Shown in pieces: positions 4,380 to 13,753 of a stretch of 20,712 bases of DNA. The notes beneath the pieces were generated by a model, which saw only the letters and a program-made list of their open reading frames with translations, was not told the DNA's origin and made no database searches. Source of the DNA: a virus. Position 1 is the first letter of the stretch, and each line of letters begins with the position of its first letter. Location: the IMG/VR virus record IMGVR_UViG_3300022856_000053, positions 1 to 20,712 of that record. One strand, written 5' to 3'. Made by a program: the position numbers and the translations under genes.

Positions 4380-5333
4380 ATGGCAGTTTCATCCACCAAC
4401 ACCTACACTGGTAAGGGTATTCAAGAGTCCTTTGAGGACGTAATCTTTGATATCTCGCCAGAAGATACACCACTATTATCAGCAGCTAAACGCATGACTG
4501 CTGGACAAACTTTTCACCAATGGCAAACAGATGCTTTAACAGCGGCAGGATCTAATGCACAAGTTGAGGGCGATGACGGTTCATTCGGTACATTAGCAGC
4601 AACAACTGTATTAGGTAACTACACACAGATCGCACGTAAAACAGTACAAATCTCTGGTACATACGATGTAGTTAAAAAATACGGTCGCAAATCAGAAGTT
4701 GCTTATCAACTAATGAAGGCTGGTAAAGAACTAAAACGCGACATGGAGTTTGCTATTGTGCGTAACCAAGCATCTAGCGCAGGCGGTGCAGGTACAGCTC
4801 GTACTACTGCAGGCGTAGAATCATGGATTACAAATTCTGTAGTTCCAACAGGCAATTCTACTGGTACAACTCCAGGCTTCGCAGCTGGTATTGTTGCAGC
4901 ACCTACTGACGGCACACTAGGCACATTTGTTGAGGCAGATTTTAAATCAGCTCTACAACTTGCTTGGGTTGACGGTGGCGAAACATCACTAGTATTAATG
5001 TCACCTAAAAACAAAGCATTGTTTGCTGGCTTCGCAGGTATCGCAACTAAATACAATGAAGTAAAAACTACTAGCCAAGCTATCATCACAGGTGCTGCTG
5101 ATATTTACGTATCAGATTTCGGTAACCATGCTGTTAAACTTGATCGCTTTATGCGTGATACTGCTGTTCTTTGCTTAGACCCTTCTTACGTTGGTTTAGC
5201 TTCATTGCGCCCAATGGAAAAAGTAGAGTTAGCAAAAACAGGTGACTCAAGCAAATACTTGATCACAACAGAGTTTGCTCTTGTTGTACAAAACCCAGAT
5301 GCACATTCAAAAGTGGCAAGTGTAGGCGCTTAG
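4380..5333 (+). CDS. Major capsid protein (SU10-type, HK97 fold expected)
   Basis: Main coat protein of the head. The N-terminal part, GIQESFEDVIFDISPEDTPL (about residues 13-32) and HQWQTDALTAAGSNAQ, matches the SU10 major head protein family (formerly DUF5309). The KYGRKSEVAYQLMKAGKELKRD region fits the long helix of that family. The 317-residue length is usual for it. A Gly/Thr-rich loop around residues 140-180 is probably surface-exposed. The RBS AGGAG lies just after the scaffold stop, and the gene is followed directly by an intrinsic terminator, as expected for a very highly expressed gene. Family name is from memory; coat function is supported by order and sequence. Confidence 0.92.
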   Translation: MAVSSTNTYTGKGIQESFEDVIFDISPEDTPLLSAAKRMTAGQTFHQWQTDALTAAGSNAQVEGDDGSFGTLAATTVLGNYTQIARKTVQISGTYDVVKKYGRKSEVAYQLMKAGKELKRDMEFAIVRNQASSAGGAGTARTTAGVESWITNSVVPTGNSTGTTPGFAAGIVAAPTDGTLGTFVEADFKSALQLAWVDGGETSLVLMSPKNKALFAGFAGIATKYNEVKTTSQAIITGAADIYVSDFGNHAVKLDRFMRDTAVLCLDPSYVGLASLRPMEKVELAKTGDSSKYLITTEFALVVQNPDAHSKVASVGA

Positions 5334-5378: not shown

Positions 5379-5705
5379 ATGTCAGTATTTTTTGATTACA
5401 ATCCAGACACTGGTGTCACACAAACGTTTGACTACGATCCAGTTACTGAAAATGTAAATTTAACATCGCACCAAGACTTAGATTTCTTTTTTAAACAGAT
5501 AAAAGATAAGCGTGATAATCCTGAGGCATGGGCTAAAGGTGTGAAAGAATCGTTTGCACATTACGCAACAATACCTGCGGTAGTAGAGATAGAGCTAAAG
5601 AAAAAGGGGATAGATATTAATAACCCTAACCAAACAAAAGAATTGTTAAAAGAAATAAATCAAAATTATCCATATTTAAAAACAACAACTAAGATTATTA
5701 AATAA
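5379..5705 (+). CDS. Conserved phage protein of unknown function downstream of capsid gene
   Basis: 108 residues, no membrane segment. It opens with FFDYNPDTGVTQTFDYDP, then SHQDLDFFFKQIKDKRDN and KGVKESFAHYATIPAVVEIEL, and ends with YPYLKTTTKI. Similar small proteins with a DYDP...HQD...FAHYA pattern occur in the structural regions of many podovirus-like phages, but I know no proven function. The RBS AAAGG lies 8-9 bases before ATG. It is the first gene after the terminator and shares a TAATG overlap with the next gene. A virion or assembly role is inferred from position only. Confidence 0.75.
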   Translation: MSVFFDYNPDTGVTQTFDYDPVTENVNLTSHQDLDFFFKQIKDKRDNPEAWAKGVKESFAHYATIPAVVEIELKKKGIDINNPNQTKELLKEINQNYPYLKTTTKIIK

Positions 5706-7030
5706 TGGATTTAAACGAATTGAAAGAATGTCAGCTTGCAATACATAAGTTTATTGAAGCTAATGATTACAACAGCGCAATGCCTTTGATTTATTCGGTA
5801 TTAGATATATATCCTGATGACGCGGCAACATTAAACTTTCTCGGTTATATATGGCTGGAAACTAAACAAGAATCGCTGGCTTACCAAATTTTTAGGCGTG
5901 CGTTACAAGAGCAACCAAACAATAAATCATTATGGACTTCGCTTGGTCGTGCTTGCCATGAGATGGATAAACCAGAAGAGGCGATTAAATACTTTATTAA
6001 GTCTGCAGAGCTTGATCCGACCTATACGCTTGCATTTTCTAACTTATCAGCTACTTTAGTTCAGCTATCAGAGTGGGAACAGGCAGAGAAAGCCGCTAGG
6101 ACTGCAATAGAGCTATCTATAAGCGATTTAAATGCTCAATTGAACCTAGCACATTGCCTACTAGCTAAAGGCGCGTATAAAGAGGGCTGGCAAGAGTGGA
6201 AAAAATCAGTCGGCACTAAGTTTCGCAAAGACCAAGATTATAATGGTGAAGCATCATGGAATGGTGAGGCTGGTAAGAATTTAGTTATCTATGGTGAACA
6301 AGGTTTAGGCGATGAGATATTCTACGCAAGTTGCGTACACAAAGCTAAAGAGCTATCCGCTAAAGTTTATATTGACTGCGATGCTAGATTAGAGAATTTG
6401 TTTAAACGTAGCTTCCCTGATTGTGAAGTACACGGTACACGGCACTCACCGACACTAGATTGGGATGTAAGCGAGATAAATGCAAAGATACCTATTGGTG
6501 GATTGCCTGAATTTTTCTGCAACGATCCTAAAGAGTTTCCAAACAAGCCGTTCTTAATTGCTGATAGTGAAAAGCGATTAATGTGGCGTGCCTTGTTTGA
6601 TTCATGGAATAAAAAAGTTATTGGCATTACGACACATGGCGGATTAAAGCTAACACACGCCAGACATCGTAAGCTATCAGCTAGTGACTTAGCACCATTA
6701 CTTAAACGTAAAGACATACAATTAGTATCATTGGATTACGCACCTGAATCTAAAATAGATGGCGTTAAATACTTTGACACTGTAATGACATCGCCTGATT
6801 ATGATGATACTGCCGCATTGATTGCCGAGTTAGACATGGTGGTTGGAGTCCCTACTACTGCGTTACATTGTAGTGCAGCGTTAGGGATTAAGACATTGAC
6901 ATTAGTACCTAAGCATCATCAATGGCGATATGCAAGACCAAGTATGCCGTTCTATCAGAAAATGCAATTGATCTACAAAGACAATAAAGAATGGATTGAT
7001 GTTATAAAGCACGCAGAAAAGCAATGTTAA
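5705..7030 (+). CDS. TPR-repeat protein with glycosyltransferase-like C-terminal domain
   Basis: The N-terminal about 165 residues form about four to five tetratricopeptide repeats (for example PNNKSLWTSLGRACHEMDKP at 71-90, then EEAIKYFIKSAELDP at 91-105, and the AYKEGWQEW end at 157-165). The C-terminal about 250 residues look like a GT-B glycosyltransferase of the heptosyltransferase/OGT-associated kind. There is a glycine-rich GEQGLGDEIFYASC at 197-210 and a terminal nucleotide-sugar-type motif GVPTTALHCSAALGIKT at 381-397. Bacterial TPR-GT proteins of this layout modify proteins or build surface glycans; the substrate here is unknown. It is not a normal part of a podovirus head-tail module. 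It overlaps the upstream gene by TAATG and the downstream methyltransferase by 7 bases, so the two are probably made together. Confidence 0.82.
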   Translation: MDLNELKECQLAIHKFIEANDYNSAMPLIYSVLDIYPDDAATLNFLGYIWLETKQESLAYQIFRRALQEQPNNKSLWTSLGRACHEMDKPEEAIKYFIKSAELDPTYTLAFSNLSATLVQLSEWEQAEKAARTAIELSISDLNAQLNLAHCLLAKGAYKEGWQEWKKSVGTKFRKDQDYNGEASWNGEAGKNLVIYGEQGLGDEIFYASCVHKAKELSAKVYIDCDARLENLFKRSFPDCEVHGTRHSPTLDWDVSEINAKIPIGGLPEFFCNDPKEFPNKPFLIADSEKRLMWRALFDSWNKKVIGITTHGGLKLTHARHRKLSASDLAPLLKRKDIQLVSLDYAPESKIDGVKYFDTVMTSPDYDDTAALIAELDMVVGVPTTALHCSAALGIKTLTLVPKHHQWRYARPSMPFYQKMQLIYKDNKEWIDVIKHAEKQC

Positions 7031-7530
7031 TCACAGACGAGTATCGCGTTATGCAAGCGGAGTTACATCAAAACCCTAGTTACGGGGTTGCCAGTCAATT
7101 CTTTGCACCTATTGTTGATGATGTGATTAAAAACTACAACGTCAAAGAGTTACTTGATTATGGCGCAGGAAAATGCAGGTTAAAAGATAGTTTAACGGAG
7201 AACGTTAAATACACTCCGTACGAACCTAGTAATCCTTTATGGGATAAGAAGCCTGAACCATGTGAGATGGTGGCTTGTATTGACGTATTAGAGCATATAG
7301 AACCTGGTTGTTTAACTGATGTGTTGGATGATCTGCAAAGGCTAGTTTTAAAGTACGGATTGTTTACCGTGCATACTAAGCCTGCTGTAAAGATATTACC
7401 TGATGGTCGCAACGCGCACTTAATACAAGAACCTATGAGTTGGTGGCAAGATAAATTTAATAAAAGATTTAAGATAGTAAAACATTTAGAGATGGATAAT
7501 GGCTTTATTGTTTTAGTTAAAAAATTATAA
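7024..7530 (+). CDS. Class I SAM-dependent methyltransferase
   Basis: A 168-residue, compact Rossmann-type methyltransferase. Motif I, the SAM-binding loop LLDYGAGKC, is at residues 43-51. The acidic residue that normally holds the SAM ribose is E67, in YEPSNP. Motif IV, ACIDVLEHIEP, is at 84-94. These match the small methyltransferases that often accompany glycan or small-molecule modification genes. No DNA-methylase catalytic motif (NPPY or PC) is present, so a DNA target is unlikely. Its start overlaps the TPR-glycosyltransferase gene by 7 bases. The substrate is unknown; co-modification with the upstream gene is inference. A second ATG at residue 10 could also be the start. Confidence 0.85.
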   Translation: MLITDEYRVMQAELHQNPSYGVASQFFAPIVDDVIKNYNVKELLDYGAGKCRLKDSLTENVKYTPYEPSNPLWDKKPEPCEMVACIDVLEHIEPGCLTDVLDDLQRLVLKYGLFTVHTKPAVKILPDGRNAHLIQEPMSWWQDKFNKRFKIVKHLEMDNGFIVLVKKL

Positions 7531-7538
7531 GGATTAAA

Positions 7539-8147
7539 ATGGCATTTAGTAATTACAATGAATTGGTTGATACAGTCGCTAGTTACTTAGCACGTAGTGA
7601 TTTGACTAGCATCGTGCCTACTTTTGTACAACTAGCACAAGAGCGTATGACTAGAGATTTAAGAACACGCGAGATGCTTAAACTATCAACTACGACTGCA
7701 ACTGATAGCACTGTAGAATTACCAATTGACTTCTTAGAGATGCGCGAGATTCATTTTCAAGGTAACCCTCCAGTAACATTAGAATATCAAAGTCCTGATA
7801 AGTTTTTCCGCAATCATTTAACAACGACATCTGGACAACCTTATTACTTCACCATTATTGGCTATGAGATGCAATTTGCGCCAACGCCTGACAACAATCA
7901 GGTATTGCAAATGCTTTATTACAACAAGCCAGCATTCATCTCACCAAGTGTATCAAGTAACTTATATCTAGCTAACTATCCTGATGCGCTTTTATACGCA
8001 ACATTAGCTGAAGCAGAACCATACTTGATGAACGATGCTAGATTACAAGTATGGGCAAGTATGTACGAACGCGCTATATCCAACATTATGAACAACGATA
8101 TTGGTAAGAAATTCCCCAATACTGCTTTAAACGTAACTTTAAGATGA
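7539..8147 (+). CDS. Head-tail adaptor protein (SU10 adaptor-like)
   Basis: Connects the portal to the tail. 202 residues, within the usual adaptor range. The N-terminal helix region NYNELVDTVASYLARSDL with TFVQLAQERMTRDLR and EMREI, followed by EYQSPDKFF, is typical of the phage adaptor family seen in SU10- and P22-gp4-related phages. The C-terminal part LANYPDALLYATLAEAEPYL with WASMYERAI is the conserved helical pair of that family. The RBS AAGGA lies 6 bases before ATG. It resumes the normal virion gene order after the enzyme insert. Family assignment is from remembered motifs. Confidence 0.86.
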   Translation: MAFSNYNELVDTVASYLARSDLTSIVPTFVQLAQERMTRDLRTREMLKLSTTTATDSTVELPIDFLEMREIHFQGNPPVTLEYQSPDKFFRNHLTTTSGQPYYFTIIGYEMQFAPTPDNNQVLQMLYYNKPAFISPSVSSNLYLANYPDALLYATLAEAEPYLMNDARLQVWASMYERAISNIMNNDIGKKFPNTALNVTLR

Positions 8148-8156
8148 GGAAACATC

Positions 8157-8543
8157 ATGGCTGAAATTAGTAATTATCTAGAGCAGGCTCTAATCAACGC
8201 AACAATCCGCAACACTACTTATATAAGCCCGGCGACAGTTTATGTTGGTTTGTATACAACTGATCCTACAGACGCTAATACAGGCACAGAAGTATCAGGT
8301 GGCTCTTATGCACGTCAATCAGTAACTTTTGGCGCACCCTCTGACGGCTTATCTGCTAGTGATGCTGACGTAACATTTACGTCAGCTACTGCTAACTGGG
8401 GAACTGTTGGTTGGATTGGTATATTAGACGCTTCTACAAGCGGTAATTTGTTATATCACACAGCTTTAGATGCTGCTAAAACAATTGAAACTAACGACAT
8501 ATTTAAGATTGCATCAAGCAATTTAACGGTTCAGTTAAGTTAA
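8157..8543 (+). CDS. Gp80-like phage appendage protein
   Basis: 128 residues, beta-rich and without a membrane segment. It opens with ISNYLEQALINATIRNTTY and contains the well-conserved TVYVGLYTTDPTDANTGTEV, YARQSVTFGAP and TSATANWGTVGWIGILDA. This pattern recurs in small phage tail-fibre-associated proteins of many siphoviruses and podoviruses (the 'gp80' group). It probably forms a trimeric beta structure at the virion surface or tail. The RBS GAGGAA lies just upstream, and the gene precedes the fibre gene with a 9-base gap. The exact role is unproven. Confidence 0.8.
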   Translation: MAEISNYLEQALINATIRNTTYISPATVYVGLYTTDPTDANTGTEVSGGSYARQSVTFGAPSDGLSASDADVTFTSATANWGTVGWIGILDASTSGNLLYHTALDAAKTIETNDIFKIASSNLTVQLS

Positions 8544-8552
8544 GGGCATAAC

Positions 8553-9608
8553 ATGGCTTTAGTATTAGCAGATAGAGTACAGGTTACAACATCAACTACA
8601 GGCACAGGCACGCTCACGCTTGGATCTGCTGTTACTGGATTTCAAGATTTTACTGTAATAGGCGATGGAAATACTACTTATTATACAATCACAAATAGTA
8701 CCGCATGGGAAGTTGGTGTTGGAACATATACGTCTTCTGGCACTACTTTGGCTAGAACTACAATCTTATCTAACTCAAATGGTAACACATCACCAATCAC
8801 GCTATCAGGCGATAGTAACGTATTTGTTACTTATCCAGCAGTTGCCGCCTCAGATGCAGCCACTGAACTGCGCCCAATTGGAGCTACTGTAGCCTCTAAC
8901 GCTATTACGGTCACTTTGGGTATAAGCACAGTTGCTTTTAGAAGCACTACACTAACAAGTGGTGCGCTAGCTGTATTGCAGAACGCTGCTACGCTATCTT
9001 TGGTAATTGCAGCTACCGATTCATTCGGCGCTGTTACCGCTGACGGCGTTCGTAGGATTGTTATCCTTGCAATCAACAACGCAGGCACGATTGAACTTGC
9101 GGCTTCTAGTCTTGCTGGTGGCGTGAATCTGGATGAGACAGGTGTTATTACTACGGCTACAGCGGCCACGACACTAACTGCAATTAAAGCAGCAGCGGTG
9201 CGTACTGGTGTAGCTTACCGAATAGTCGGCTTTATTGACGTGCCGTTCACAACCTCTGTGGGTTGGGGTTCATTGGCAGTAGTGCAACCGATTGGCGGGC
9301 AGGCACTGGCTGCAATGTCTAGCTTGGGTTATGGGCAGACGTGGCAGGTGGTTACGCGCACCAGTGGGGTGACGTATTACAACCTGACGGGCAAACCGCT
9401 ATCAGTGAATAGATTGACCCCCGGTAGCGTCGCGGGAACTACATCTAGTGCGGTGGTTATAAACGGCGGCACAAGTTTTACGTTTGCGAAAGCTCATTCT
9501 AGTAGCGGAAATCAATCATCTGCTGGCGGTTTTGTTGTGCCGATTGGGGCGAGATACGTAATCACTGACACGAACGGCTTATGGCCAACTACAAACGAAC
9601 TTCGCTAA
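8553..9608 (+). CDS. Tail fibre / appendage protein
   Basis: 351 residues, Thr/Ser/Gly/Ala-rich and almost wholly beta-strand-like. The N-terminal part ADRVQVTTSTTGTGTLTLGSA, with IGDGNTTYYTITNSTAWEVG and VGTYTSSGTTLARTTIL, is a very widespread attachment segment of phage fibre and decoration proteins. The middle (about residues 110-230) is Ala/Val-rich. The C-terminal segment, GYGQTWQVVTRTSGVTYYNL then TGKPLSVN and VVPIGARYVITD, is a common fibre tip. The last third is encoded by clearly G+C-richer DNA than the first part, suggesting a swapped host-range tip. The RBS AAGGG overlaps the upstream stop codon. Likely binds the host surface; receptor unknown. Confidence 0.83.
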   Translation: MALVLADRVQVTTSTTGTGTLTLGSAVTGFQDFTVIGDGNTTYYTITNSTAWEVGVGTYTSSGTTLARTTILSNSNGNTSPITLSGDSNVFVTYPAVAASDAATELRPIGATVASNAITVTLGISTVAFRSTTLTSGALAVLQNAATLSLVIAATDSFGAVTADGVRRIVILAINNAGTIELAASSLAGGVNLDETGVITTATAATTLTAIKAAAVRTGVAYRIVGFIDVPFTTSVGWGSLAVVQPIGGQALAAMSSLGYGQTWQVVTRTSGVTYYNLTGKPLSVNRLTPGSVAGTTSSAVVINGGTSFTFAKAHSSSGNQSSAGGFVVPIGARYVITDTNGLWPTTNELR

Positions 9609-9617
9609 AGGAAAAAT
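9604..9617 (+). repeat. 14-bp direct repeat, copy 1 (contains an RBS)
   Basis: GCTAAAGGAAAAAT, identical to 10073-10086. Each copy spans the end region of one gene and carries the AAAGG ribosome binding site of the next. It may be a recombination boundary of the module between the copies, or two similar translation starts. Confidence 0.7.
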
Positions 9618-9618
9618 C

Positions 9619-9894
9619 ATGTACTACAAAGCCCCCGACAACTCCCTGCATTTTCTTGACGACGACAGCTACGCGCATGTCTTGCCTGCTGGCTCAGTTG
9701 CCATCACGGATGCAGACGCTGAAGCGCTCAGGCCAGTACCACCTCCACCCACCTACCAACAACTCCGCACCGCTGAGTACAACCTGAAAAGCACAGGCGA
9801 GCAGTTTGGTATGCAGTATGACGATGCTACTAACGGCACAACAACTTGGATTGACTGGCAAGACGGCATCAAAACAAGGATTCCGAAGACATGA
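9619..9894 (+). CDS. Tail fibre assembly-like protein
   Basis: 91 residues, immediately after the fibre gene, as is usual for fibre assembly chaperones. The N-terminal part MYYKAPDNSLHFLDDDSYAH then LPAGSVAITDADAEAL is typical of the short Tfa-like proteins, where this piece is repeated in the larger relatives. A Pro-rich linker (RPVPPPPTYQQ) follows, then a compact C-terminal part ending DWQDGIKTRIPK. It would help fold or trimerise the neighbouring fibre and may stay on it. The RBS AAAGGA is 6 bases upstream. Its G+C content matches the fibre's 3' end rather than the rest of the window, so fibre tip and chaperone probably moved together. Confidence 0.72.
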   Translation: MYYKAPDNSLHFLDDDSYAHVLPAGSVAITDADAEALRPVPPPPTYQQLRTAEYNLKSTGEQFGMQYDDATNGTTTWIDWQDGIKTRIPKT

Positions 9895-9898
9895 TTAC

Positions 9899-9905
9899 GG
9901 AGGAG
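9899..9905 (+). promoter_or_regulatory. Strong ribosome binding site that decides the next start
   Basis: GGAGGAG, 5 bases before ATG 9911. This places the start of the small Cys protein at 9911 and not at the GTG-type codon far upstream in the same frame (9806), which would overlap the fibre-assembly gene widely. Confidence 0.8.
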
Positions 9906-9910
9906 ATAAA

Positions 9911-10069
9911 ATGAGCAACGGATTAGAAAAATACTTGAGCGACACACTCGATGCTAATAACATGGGGTTGTCTAAATACTACTGCCCATGCTGTAAGCGA
10001 GATCTTCCTGTGCTTGCAGGGGTAATTACGCATGACGATCGGCCTCACCCTGAAAATATGGTTTTTTGA
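9911..10069 (+). CDS. Small Cys/His protein, possible zinc-binding
   Basis: 52 residues, starting at the ATG preceded by GGAGGAG. The core YYCPCCKRDLPVL (about residues 22-34) followed by THDDRPHPENM has three close Cys and two His. This could bind one metal ion as a single-knuckle zinc ribbon. Similar small 'CPxC...HDD.PHP' proteins occur in many phage genomes near tail or lysis genes, with no function known to me. It lies between the fibre-assembly gene and a small membrane protein, within the module bounded by the 14-bp repeat. Metal binding is inference. Confidence 0.72.
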   Translation: MSNGLEKYLSDTLDANNMGLSKYYCPCCKRDLPVLAGVITHDDRPHPENMVF

Positions 10070-10072
10070 GCA

Positions 10073-10086
10073 GCTAAAGGAAAAAT
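10073..10086 (+). repeat. 14-bp direct repeat, copy 2 (contains an RBS)
   Basis: Perfect copy of 9604-9617. The AAAGG within it serves the small membrane protein starting at 10089. Confidence 0.7.
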
Positions 10087-10088
10087 AA

Positions 10089-10211
10089 ATGAAACTTAAA
10101 CTTATATGGTTATGCTACTTCCCAATCAATCTGGTTGTTACCATCTTTGCGATGTTGATATCACCTATTCTAGCGATGTGTGTTAAGACTAAATATCCAA
10201 AAGCTAACTGA
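10089..10211 (+). CDS. Small single-span membrane protein
   Basis: 40 residues, supported by AAAGG 8 bases before ATG and by a TGATG overlap with the next gene. Residues 5-31 (LIWLCYFPINLVVTIFAMLI and beyond) form one hydrophobic span with a basic start, MKLK, and a basic end, KTKYPKAN. The YFPINLVVT...ISPIL pattern recalls the N-terminal part of a small phage membrane protein family (DUF7338-like) that is usually longer and continues with a Trp-rich segment missing here. It may therefore be a shortened relative. Function unknown. It sits well away from the lysis cassette, so there is no strong reason to call it a holin. Confidence 0.7.
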   Translation: MKLKLIWLCYFPINLVVTIFAMLISPILAMCVKTKYPKAN

Positions 10212-10684
10212 TGTTCGGTATATCCGCATTCTCACAGATACCGTTTAGCTCTTTAGCGCAAACTATTGTATTAGGATCTGCGGCTATTGTAGGAAGCTCA
10301 GATGTAACAGCTTTAGCGTTTGCAATTCGCACAGATTCAGCACAGATTACAGGTAACGCTCAAGTTGAGGCTAATGCCTTTGCTATCTTTACTGATTCAG
10401 CGTCTATAAGTGGCGTAGGAAGCGTTGTTGCTAGCGCAGTAAGGGAAAAGTTAAGCTCAGGTCAAATAAATGGCTTGGCGATCGTTATAGCAAATTCTAC
10501 GCGTGTTCGTACAACTTCAGGAGCAGTCACAGGCTTCGCGGTATTTAATGCTAACGGTGCGCCAATCGGCAAAAACTGGACACCTATACCAGTAGAAAAC
10601 AATACATGGAATGATATAGTTATTGGCGACAATAATTGGACAGACGTTTCATCGGACACAAACATTTGGAATCGAAAAGGATAG
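10211..10684 (+). CDS. Ala/Ser-rich virion-region protein with C-terminal Trp/Asn repeats
   Basis: 157 residues, unknown. Residues about 20-120 are a run of loosely repeated units of about 23 residues (AAIVGSSDVTALAFAIRTDS, then AQITGNAQVEANAFAIFTDS, then ASISGVGSVVASA), suggesting a regular beta solenoid. The C-terminal end has three spaced Trp-Asn units: NTWNDIV, NNWTDVS and NIWNRKG. Such W/N tails are common at the ends of phage structural proteins that lie among fibre genes. The start overlaps the upstream stop by one base. A virion surface or fibre-associated role is inferred from composition and place. Confidence 0.7.
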   Translation: MFGISAFSQIPFSSLAQTIVLGSAAIVGSSDVTALAFAIRTDSAQITGNAQVEANAFAIFTDSASISGVGSVVASAVREKLSSGQINGLAIVIANSTRVRTTSGAVTGFAVFNANGAPIGKNWTPIPVENNTWNDIVIGDNNWTDVSSDTNIWNRKG

Positions 10685-13011: not shown

Positions 13012-13328
13012 TGTCAGTTAATCAGCGATACCGAAAATTAAATCCAGCAGGCGCACAGCCACGCGAGATTAGTGAAGTGGTCAATAACATTGTAGACGGC
13101 AAGACTAACAACACCGGCTACTTTGTTACTACAGCATCAACCACAAGCAGTATTTTATATAATGAGCGCATTGGTGCTGATACAGCCATTATATTTACTC
13201 CGTTAGATGATAACGCGGCTGGTGAAATGGTAAAACTATACGTTGGCACACGTTCTAAAGGGCAAGCAGTTATTAATTACGACTCCAATGCTTATGTTTG
13301 TAATTACATGTATATCGTGGTTGGCTAA
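13011..13328 (+). CDS. Small conserved phage structural-region protein
   Basis: 105 residues. The N-terminal part NPAGAQPREISEVVNNIVDG (about residues 11-30) plus a beta-rich remainder (TGYFVTTASTTSSILYNERI, KLYVGTRSKGQAVI, FxYxxVG-like end) matches a small family regularly found next to podovirus tail genes. The N-terminal PREISxVVNNI helix may attach it to a larger virion part. Function not known to me. TAATG overlaps on both sides place it firmly in the tail operon. Confidence 0.72.
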   Translation: MSVNQRYRKLNPAGAQPREISEVVNNIVDGKTNNTGYFVTTASTTSSILYNERIGADTAIIFTPLDDNAAGEMVKLYVGTRSKGQAVINYDSNAYVCNYMYIVVG

Positions 13329-13753
13329 TGTTTGTATCTGCCGTCATCCCAAAAGATTATGATTTAGTTTGGAATCAAATATCAGACTACATGGAAGGCG
13401 CAGCAAAATACACACACGGGCGATTTAATTTACAAGACATCAAAGACGGGCTATATAAAAACAAATGGCAGTTATGGATCGCATTTGATGAGAATAAGAT
13501 TTACGGTGCTGTAATAACAGAAGTCATACAATATCCACGTTTAAATGCCCTGATTTTGCATTTTACGGGTGGTACACAGCTTAAACTATGGAAAGATGAT
13601 ATGTTATCCTTGCTAAGAAGGTTCGCAAGCGATAACGGATGTAAAACGATAGAATCGTACGGTAGGACAGGCTGGAAGAAAGTATTTGAAAAAGATGGCT
13701 TCAAATCAAAATTTATGTTTTATGAATTACCGATAGAGGGAAATGAAAAATGA
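13328..13753 (+). CDS. GNAT-like acetyltransferase-fold protein
   Basis: 141 residues. Strand pattern WQLWIAFDENKIYGAVITEV, then YPRLNALILHFTGG, then a helix LKLWKDDMLSLLRRFASDNG, and an ending CKTIESYGRTGWKKVFEKDG that matches the GNAT core order. Similar proteins of about 140 residues occur among tail and internal-virion genes of podoviruses, where they may be structural or modify a host or virion protein. The acetyl-CoA binding loop (normally Q/RxxGxG/A) is not evident, so enzyme activity is doubtful. It overlaps the next gene by ATGA. Confidence 0.7.
   Translation: MFVSAVIPKDYDLVWNQISDYMEGAAKYTHGRFNLQDIKDGLYKNKWQLWIAFDENKIYGAVITEVIQYPRLNALILHFTGGTQLKLWKDDMLSLLRRFASDNGCKTIESYGRTGWKKVFEKDGFKSKFMFYELPIEGNEK

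Follow-up and report, generated by a model that had tools for sequence, protein, structure and literature searches.

In enzymes of the FlmG type, the TPR domain binds the acceptor and the GT domain transfers nonulosonic acid to Ser/Thr. FlmG from Caulobacter is a flagellin glycosyltransferase of 596 aa that combines TPR and GT-B domains; it binds flagellins through its TPR domain, and its GT domain by itself is not sufficient (PMC7591256). In the mycobacteriophages Che8, Corndog and Myrna, both capsid and tail-tube proteins receive sugars from phage-encoded transferases (Freeman 2023, as cited in PMC12363180 and PMC11256854). For Maravista, the transferases are reported to lie close to the 3′ genome end.

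The DNA analysed here, referred to as the window, is a virus record of 20.7 kb (20,712 nt) from an SU10-type podovirus, and the phage is described as water-borne. Behind the gene of the major capsid protein (MCP), it encodes a TPR protein with a putative glycosyltransferase half (TPR-GT), followed by a small methyltransferase. TPR-GT resembles FlmG in that an N-terminal TPR domain and a C-terminal GT-B-type domain form a single cytoplasmic chain. However, TPR-GT is phage-encoded and shorter (441 vs 596 aa), and its gene adjoins the capsid side, not flagellins, with the methyltransferase gene next to it. By sequence, the likeness runs via a flagellin-linked Phenylobacterium protein of FlmG size and not via FlmG itself. 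Since TPR-GT lies between an MCP-linked gene and the head-tail adaptor gene, we propose that it works like FlmG, not that it is FlmG. OGT and SPINDLY (GT41) share with TPR-GT the TPR and GT-B architecture, the top PDB folds and the logic of protein O-glycosylation, but the identity is about 13%, and the TPR-GT motifs resemble GT9 instead. GT9 heptosyltransferases (PF01075) have a GD motif, as does TPR-GT, and a DTGxxH motif, to which an altered motif in TPR-GT is similar. TPR-GT gave a sub-threshold PF01075 match; in contrast to the heptosyltransferases, it is fused to a TPR domain, and its acceptor is presumably a protein rather than LPS. The mycobacteriophage transferases are phage-encoded, as is TPR-GT (a transferase by fold and family), but their excerpted descriptions mention neither the fusion of a transferase to TPR repeats nor a fixed place behind the MCP where a tailoring gene is exchanged. 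Phage virion glycosylation being already known, the new element is a putatively TPR-docked transferase with an exchangeable finishing gene behind the MCP; a search of open-access literature turned up no such combination in a fixed slot on the capsid side.

Gene order at the capsid-side slot

The Pfam search of the window matched the SU10 portal (PF23899), MCP (PF17236) and adaptor (PF24175) without ambiguity. The MCP gene, whose product is our proposed substrate, occupies positions 4380..5333 (PF17236, E 4e-87). It is followed by the gene for a 108-aa capsid-linked, phrog_3982-like protein (5379..5705; phrog_3982, E 2e-4), which forms the left border of the slot. TPR-GT (441 aa) is encoded at 5705..7030 and the methyltransferase (168 aa) at 7024..7530, so that the stop of the former and the start of the latter overlap by 7 bp (7024..7030, from the ORF coordinates). 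The SU10-type head-tail adaptor gene (7539..8147; PF24175, E 3e-31) forms the right border. All these genes, and the features within them given below, are on the + strand. The sequence-only reading had already placed both ORFs, their overlap and the flanking capsid-linked and adaptor genes in this way, as the PF17236 and PF24175 matches bear out. Among relatives, short overlaps between these genes are the rule.

Compared with a close relative (L002), dN/dS was 0.077 for TPR-GT and 0.062 for the methyltransferase; both genes are under purifying selection. As they are also kept in order among relatives, both look functional.

Elsewhere in the window, a 141-aa GNAT-like (acyltransferase-like) gene lies at 13328-13753, between the stabilisation-protein region and the ejection-protein gene. 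The Pfam search of the window gave no match for it; its homologue in ctDrO704 is annotated as a "putative acyltransferase", and it recurs in place in some relatives.

Folds and kinship of the two enzymes

The AlphaFold model of TPR-GT, calculated with 38 environmental relatives as input, reached a pLDDT of 94.9 and consists of a helical TPR superhelix, with helices over residues 3-167 (5711..6205), and a two-lobed α/β domain of residues 178-441 (6236..7027). The TPR repeats were also matched by Pfam at residues 17-160 (PF14559, E 4e-14). The top PDB matches of the model were Arabidopsis SPINDLY (E 4e-11) and OGTs, whereas TPR-only proteins scored lower (E about 1e-7). The global superposition was loose, with a TM of about 0.46 for the query, which is expected if the angle between the TPR and GT domains differs. 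Among viral models, the top matches included phage TPR proteins and single-domain phage "family 9" transferases (TMt 0.70-0.74). According to the model, TPR-GT is a TPR domain joined to a GT-B-type glycosyltransferase domain, and we regard it as a putative protein O-glycosyltransferase.

The GT half alone matched PF01075 (GT9) weakly (E 0.02-0.04). PF01075 was matched by 13 of 32 family members, with a best E of 4e-5, and the family profile gave one weak match (E 0.095) among PDB sequences. Pfam, NCBIfam and PDB sequence searches of the GT half returned nothing beyond weak GT9 matches, and the GT assignment is therefore carried by fold and family evidence. The TPR protein with a GT-B-like C-terminal half, which the sequence-only reading had proposed for comparison with GT9 and GT41, was recovered in PF14559 and in the OGT/SPINDLY and phage family 9 folds. 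Membership by sequence was not: GT41 (OGT/SPY) was rejected as Pfam gave no GT41 match, the likeness being at the level of fold and architecture only, and the window protein stays under the curated PF01075 cut-off (14.5 vs 22 bits).

GT9 enzymes hold the catalytic base and the donor site in their GD and DTGxxH motifs. In the TPR-GT family, GD is invariant and the DTGxxHxAAL-like motif is there in altered form: GEQGxGDE, with an invariant Asp, is followed by TTxxH...AALG. In alignments, the first of these corresponds to YGEQGLGDE (residues 196-204; 6290..6316), whose Asp203 was present without exception in phage (39/39) and mixed (32/32) sequences; we take this residue to be the equivalent of the catalytic Asp of GT9 heptosyltransferases. 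The GVPTTALHCSAALG region (residues 380-394; 6842..6886) is a putative donor-binding motif, like DTGxxHxAAAL of GT9. The motifs previously quoted for TPR-GT, GEQGLGDEIFYASC and GVPTTALHCSAALGIKT, were both found in its sequence. The invariant residues of the GT domain are Q199, G200, G202, D203, R235, G307, G312, R322, V379, G394 and R408, and its motifs are conserved at least as strongly as the TPR domain.

Bacterial genomes contain many TPR-transferases with 25-35% identity, often in tandem arrays. A 599-aa TPR-transferase from Phenylobacterium, which adjoins two flagellin genes, aligned with TPR-GT over 429 residues covering both domains (26% identity, E 2e-39). The architecture, size and neighbourhood of this homologue are as expected from the published description of Caulobacter FlmG. 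Judged by sequence, the nearest kin of TPR-GT are FlmG-like bacterial TPR-transferases with GT9-like motifs, and, by analogy with FlmG (PMC7591256), its TPR domain would dock the substrate. Two contigs assigned to MAGs of Acidobacteria and Bradyrhizobium (L174, L229) look phage-like and carry the portal, MCP and TPR-GT in the order of the window.

The product of 7024-7530 matched phrog_24759 (E 9e-19) but fell below the cut-off of PF13489 (21 vs 27). Its model (pLDDT 95.5) has a Rossmann-like fold, and the PDB matches are class I SAM methyltransferases. Alignment placed the glycine-rich SAM-binding motif I, DYGAGK, at residues 45-50 (7156..7173), and a family-specific LPDGRNAHL motif was also present. 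Judged by this model, the protein is a class I SAM methyltransferase, as had been read from the sequence; we ascribe to it a putative role in glycan tailoring. Its family stands beside GT9 in the unrelated phages CcrColossus, CcrBL9 and DSL-LC06, beside GT-D in phage S20, and beside TPR-GT plus GT8 genes in ctDrO704; in a Synechococcus phage, a related transferase is fused to a region that weakly matches methyltransferases. In the Roseobacter phage CRP-9, the family is next to the coat gene with no transferase beside it, and other phages carry it with no obvious transferase nearby. In other phages (L063, L082, L086) it stands alone and is transcribed in the opposite direction to its neighbours.

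The slot among related phages

TPR-GT relatives in viral contigs numbered 426 candidates, of which the best 80 were used. As the surveys rest on the best 80 matches per scan, near relatives are over-represented. In the best 80 of 426, the order MCP, 108-aa gene, TPR-GT, variable gene(s) and adaptor was preserved. A slot survey was started from the MCP rather than from either enzyme. Among the matches listed, 43 dereplicated loci showed the slot, which held TPR-GT in 26, a GT-A-like transferase in 11 and no transferase in 6. The GT-A-like transferase of sister phages (e.g., L287:7349-7963, L298:5082-5699 and L172:8350-8976) has roughly 207 aa and Pfam matches of the Anp1/GT2/GT21 kind, and is unrelated to TPR-GT. 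The slot is empty in the cultured relatives Venkman (OM43) and PaP3, which keep the 108-aa gene without a transferase. In phiM5, an SGNH hydrolase lies near the slot position.

On the MCP tree (82 rows, with one long and unsure branch, L005), the TPR-GT label required 1 change (99/97 support), the GT-A-like label 4 and the empty label 5. Among nine near-genome-length relatives, whose records may be incomplete, each carried one copy of TPR-GT; in the same records, no integrase was found (0/9), and a thymidylate-synthase family gene occurred in two. TPR-GT is a stable, single-copy, clade-wide gene. The sequence-only reading had seen the pair as an unexpected insertion in the morphogenesis operon and had suggested a survey of this slot in relatives; that survey, with TPR-GT in 26 of the 43 loci listed, and the single change on the MCP tree contradict it, and a recent insertion was rejected on both grounds.

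The second position is far more changeable. Among dereplicated TPR-GT loci from the best 80 of 426, it held the methyltransferase in 43, the methyltransferase plus GT8 in 13, GT9 in 7, FkbM in 4, GT8 in 3, and other genes in the rest. On a quick TPR-GT tree, the second-position gene needed 20 changes with nine label types, and 19 changes with six grouped labels, against a floor of 5. In L094, whose TPR-GT is 74% identical, only 16 bp separate TPR-GT from the adaptor gene. As the second gene can be a methyltransferase, FkbM, GT9, GT8, a radical-SAM enzyme or nothing, the "pair" consists of a constant core enzyme and a swappable tailoring enzyme. Of the joint action earlier suggested from the gene overlap, the translational overlap stands, but an obligate enzyme pair was rejected, since the methyltransferase is replaced or missing in many relatives, L094 among them. 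We also observed a radical SAM/SPASM enzyme in the slot of L055 (9107-10036), near the methyltransferase. Two families of about 237 and 206 aa (L154:10043-10753 and L163:9918-10535) nearly always follow the GT9/FkbM slot genes; family searches gave no confident match for either.

Proposed modification, its acceptor and the alternatives

We consider it reasonably probable that the two genes are a virion-glycosylation cassette, with the MCP as the likeliest acceptor and the methyltransferase finishing the glycan. The TPR domain would dock a phage structural protein, most likely the MCP, in the cytoplasm before or during assembly, and the GT-B-type domain would move a host-supplied nucleotide-activated sugar onto Ser/Thr, in the way that FlmG glycosylates flagellins. 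Through the gene overlap, the methyltransferase would be translated from the same mRNA, and it would then methylate the attached sugar. Where relatives exchange the last enzyme (FkbM, GT9, GT8, radical-SAM), the finish of the glycan would differ and the first transferase stay. In this scheme we infer the enzymatic activity, the sugar, the acceptor protein and site, and the methylation of the sugar rather than the protein. More generally, most surveyed relatives have a sugar enzyme in the slot, and such phages therefore probably sugar-coat a virion protein of their own.

Two arguments favour the MCP as the acceptor: the capsid-side slot is used by two unrelated transferases, and the motif [ST][ST]xGF tracks TPR-GT, being found in 48/53 MCPs of TPR-GT phages vs 0/27 of others. 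In the window, TTPGF (MCP residues 163-167; 4866..4880) is the candidate acceptor site. We must also note that this correlation amounts to about one clade-level evolutionary event. Ser/Thr occupied 4/18 MCP signature positions vs 18/131 conserved-class positions, with no clear enrichment, and the overall Ser/Thr content did not differ (0.189 vs 0.184); the TTPGF site is therefore given as a prediction only. Nor does the position of the slot beside the MCP gene establish the MCP as acceptor, as linkage alone could preserve the order.

That the same chemistry acts on another virion target, namely the 108-aa neighbour, a fibre or another tail protein, is rather unlikely, although several observations point there. 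The 108-aa gene was nearly always present at the slot, the annotation of its homologue in the Sinorhizobium phage phiM5 places it in the particle proteome, the structural genes at 8157-10684 are Ser/Thr-rich, and capsid and tail-tube proteins of mycobacteriophages are both glycosylated (Freeman 2023, as cited in PMC12619734). However, the fibre-like genes downstream vary or are missing in relatives while the cassette is constant, and the 108-aa gene also occurs where the transferase is absent, as in Venkman and PaP3. A modification of the host surface (flagellin, pilin or LPS) that blocks superinfection or changes the host seems improbable to us, given that practically every relative has the genes within its late structural operon and that sister phages fill the same capsid-side slot with a GT-A-like transferase; with no integrase in the nine near-genome-length relatives, lysogenic conversion is unlikely. 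Such a role would suit the FlmG-type homologues that modify bacterial flagellin, the flagellin-like genes near three bacterial relatives, and the GT9 enzymes, which classically act on LPS. The fixed slot behind the MCP and the lack of an integrase in the nine long relatives agree with the earlier preference for a virion protein as the target.

Phage transferases that glycosylate DNA are also known (Pyle 2024, as cited in PMC12619734), and two of the nine near-genome-length relatives carry a thymidylate-synthase-type gene. Nevertheless, glycosylation of hypermodified phage DNA by TPR-GT is very improbable: that family is missing in seven of the nine, whereas TPR-GT is in all nine, the TPR-GT architecture fits protein transferases, and the locus is the virion operon and not replication. 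We give hardly any credence to enzymes that are no longer catalytic, with the TPR protein as an assembly or scaffold factor, because conservation in the GT-domain motifs is no lower than in the TPR domain (11 invariant residues from Q199 to R408) and those exchange partners that could be identified are sugar-type or SAM enzymes. TPR proteins do commonly act as scaffolds, and the SGNH hydrolase at the phiM5 slot is annotated as found in particles.

Virion glycosylation with the MCP as the likeliest acceptor can be extended to a whole clade, in a form that is possible but on balance doubtful. Across a large clade of aquatic SU10-type podoviruses, most of them uncultured, an OGT/FlmG-like TPR-GT would place an O-glycan on a conserved Thr-Thr loop of the MCP, exchange of the tailoring gene would vary the outer sugar or methyl cap, and the GT-A-like slot transferase of sister phages would serve the same purpose, giving a modular, swappable coat. 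The predictions offered are a mass shift, an acceptor loop, and loss of the modification when one gene is removed. The question raised is whether the sugar coat would be of use to an aquatic phage in adsorption, in protist predation, or in escaping host or environmental binding proteins. If true, capsid glycosylation would be a standing trait of widespread environmental phages and not an actinobacteriophage curiosity, with a constant TPR-transferase and an exchangeable finishing enzyme encoded at one set position after the capsid gene.
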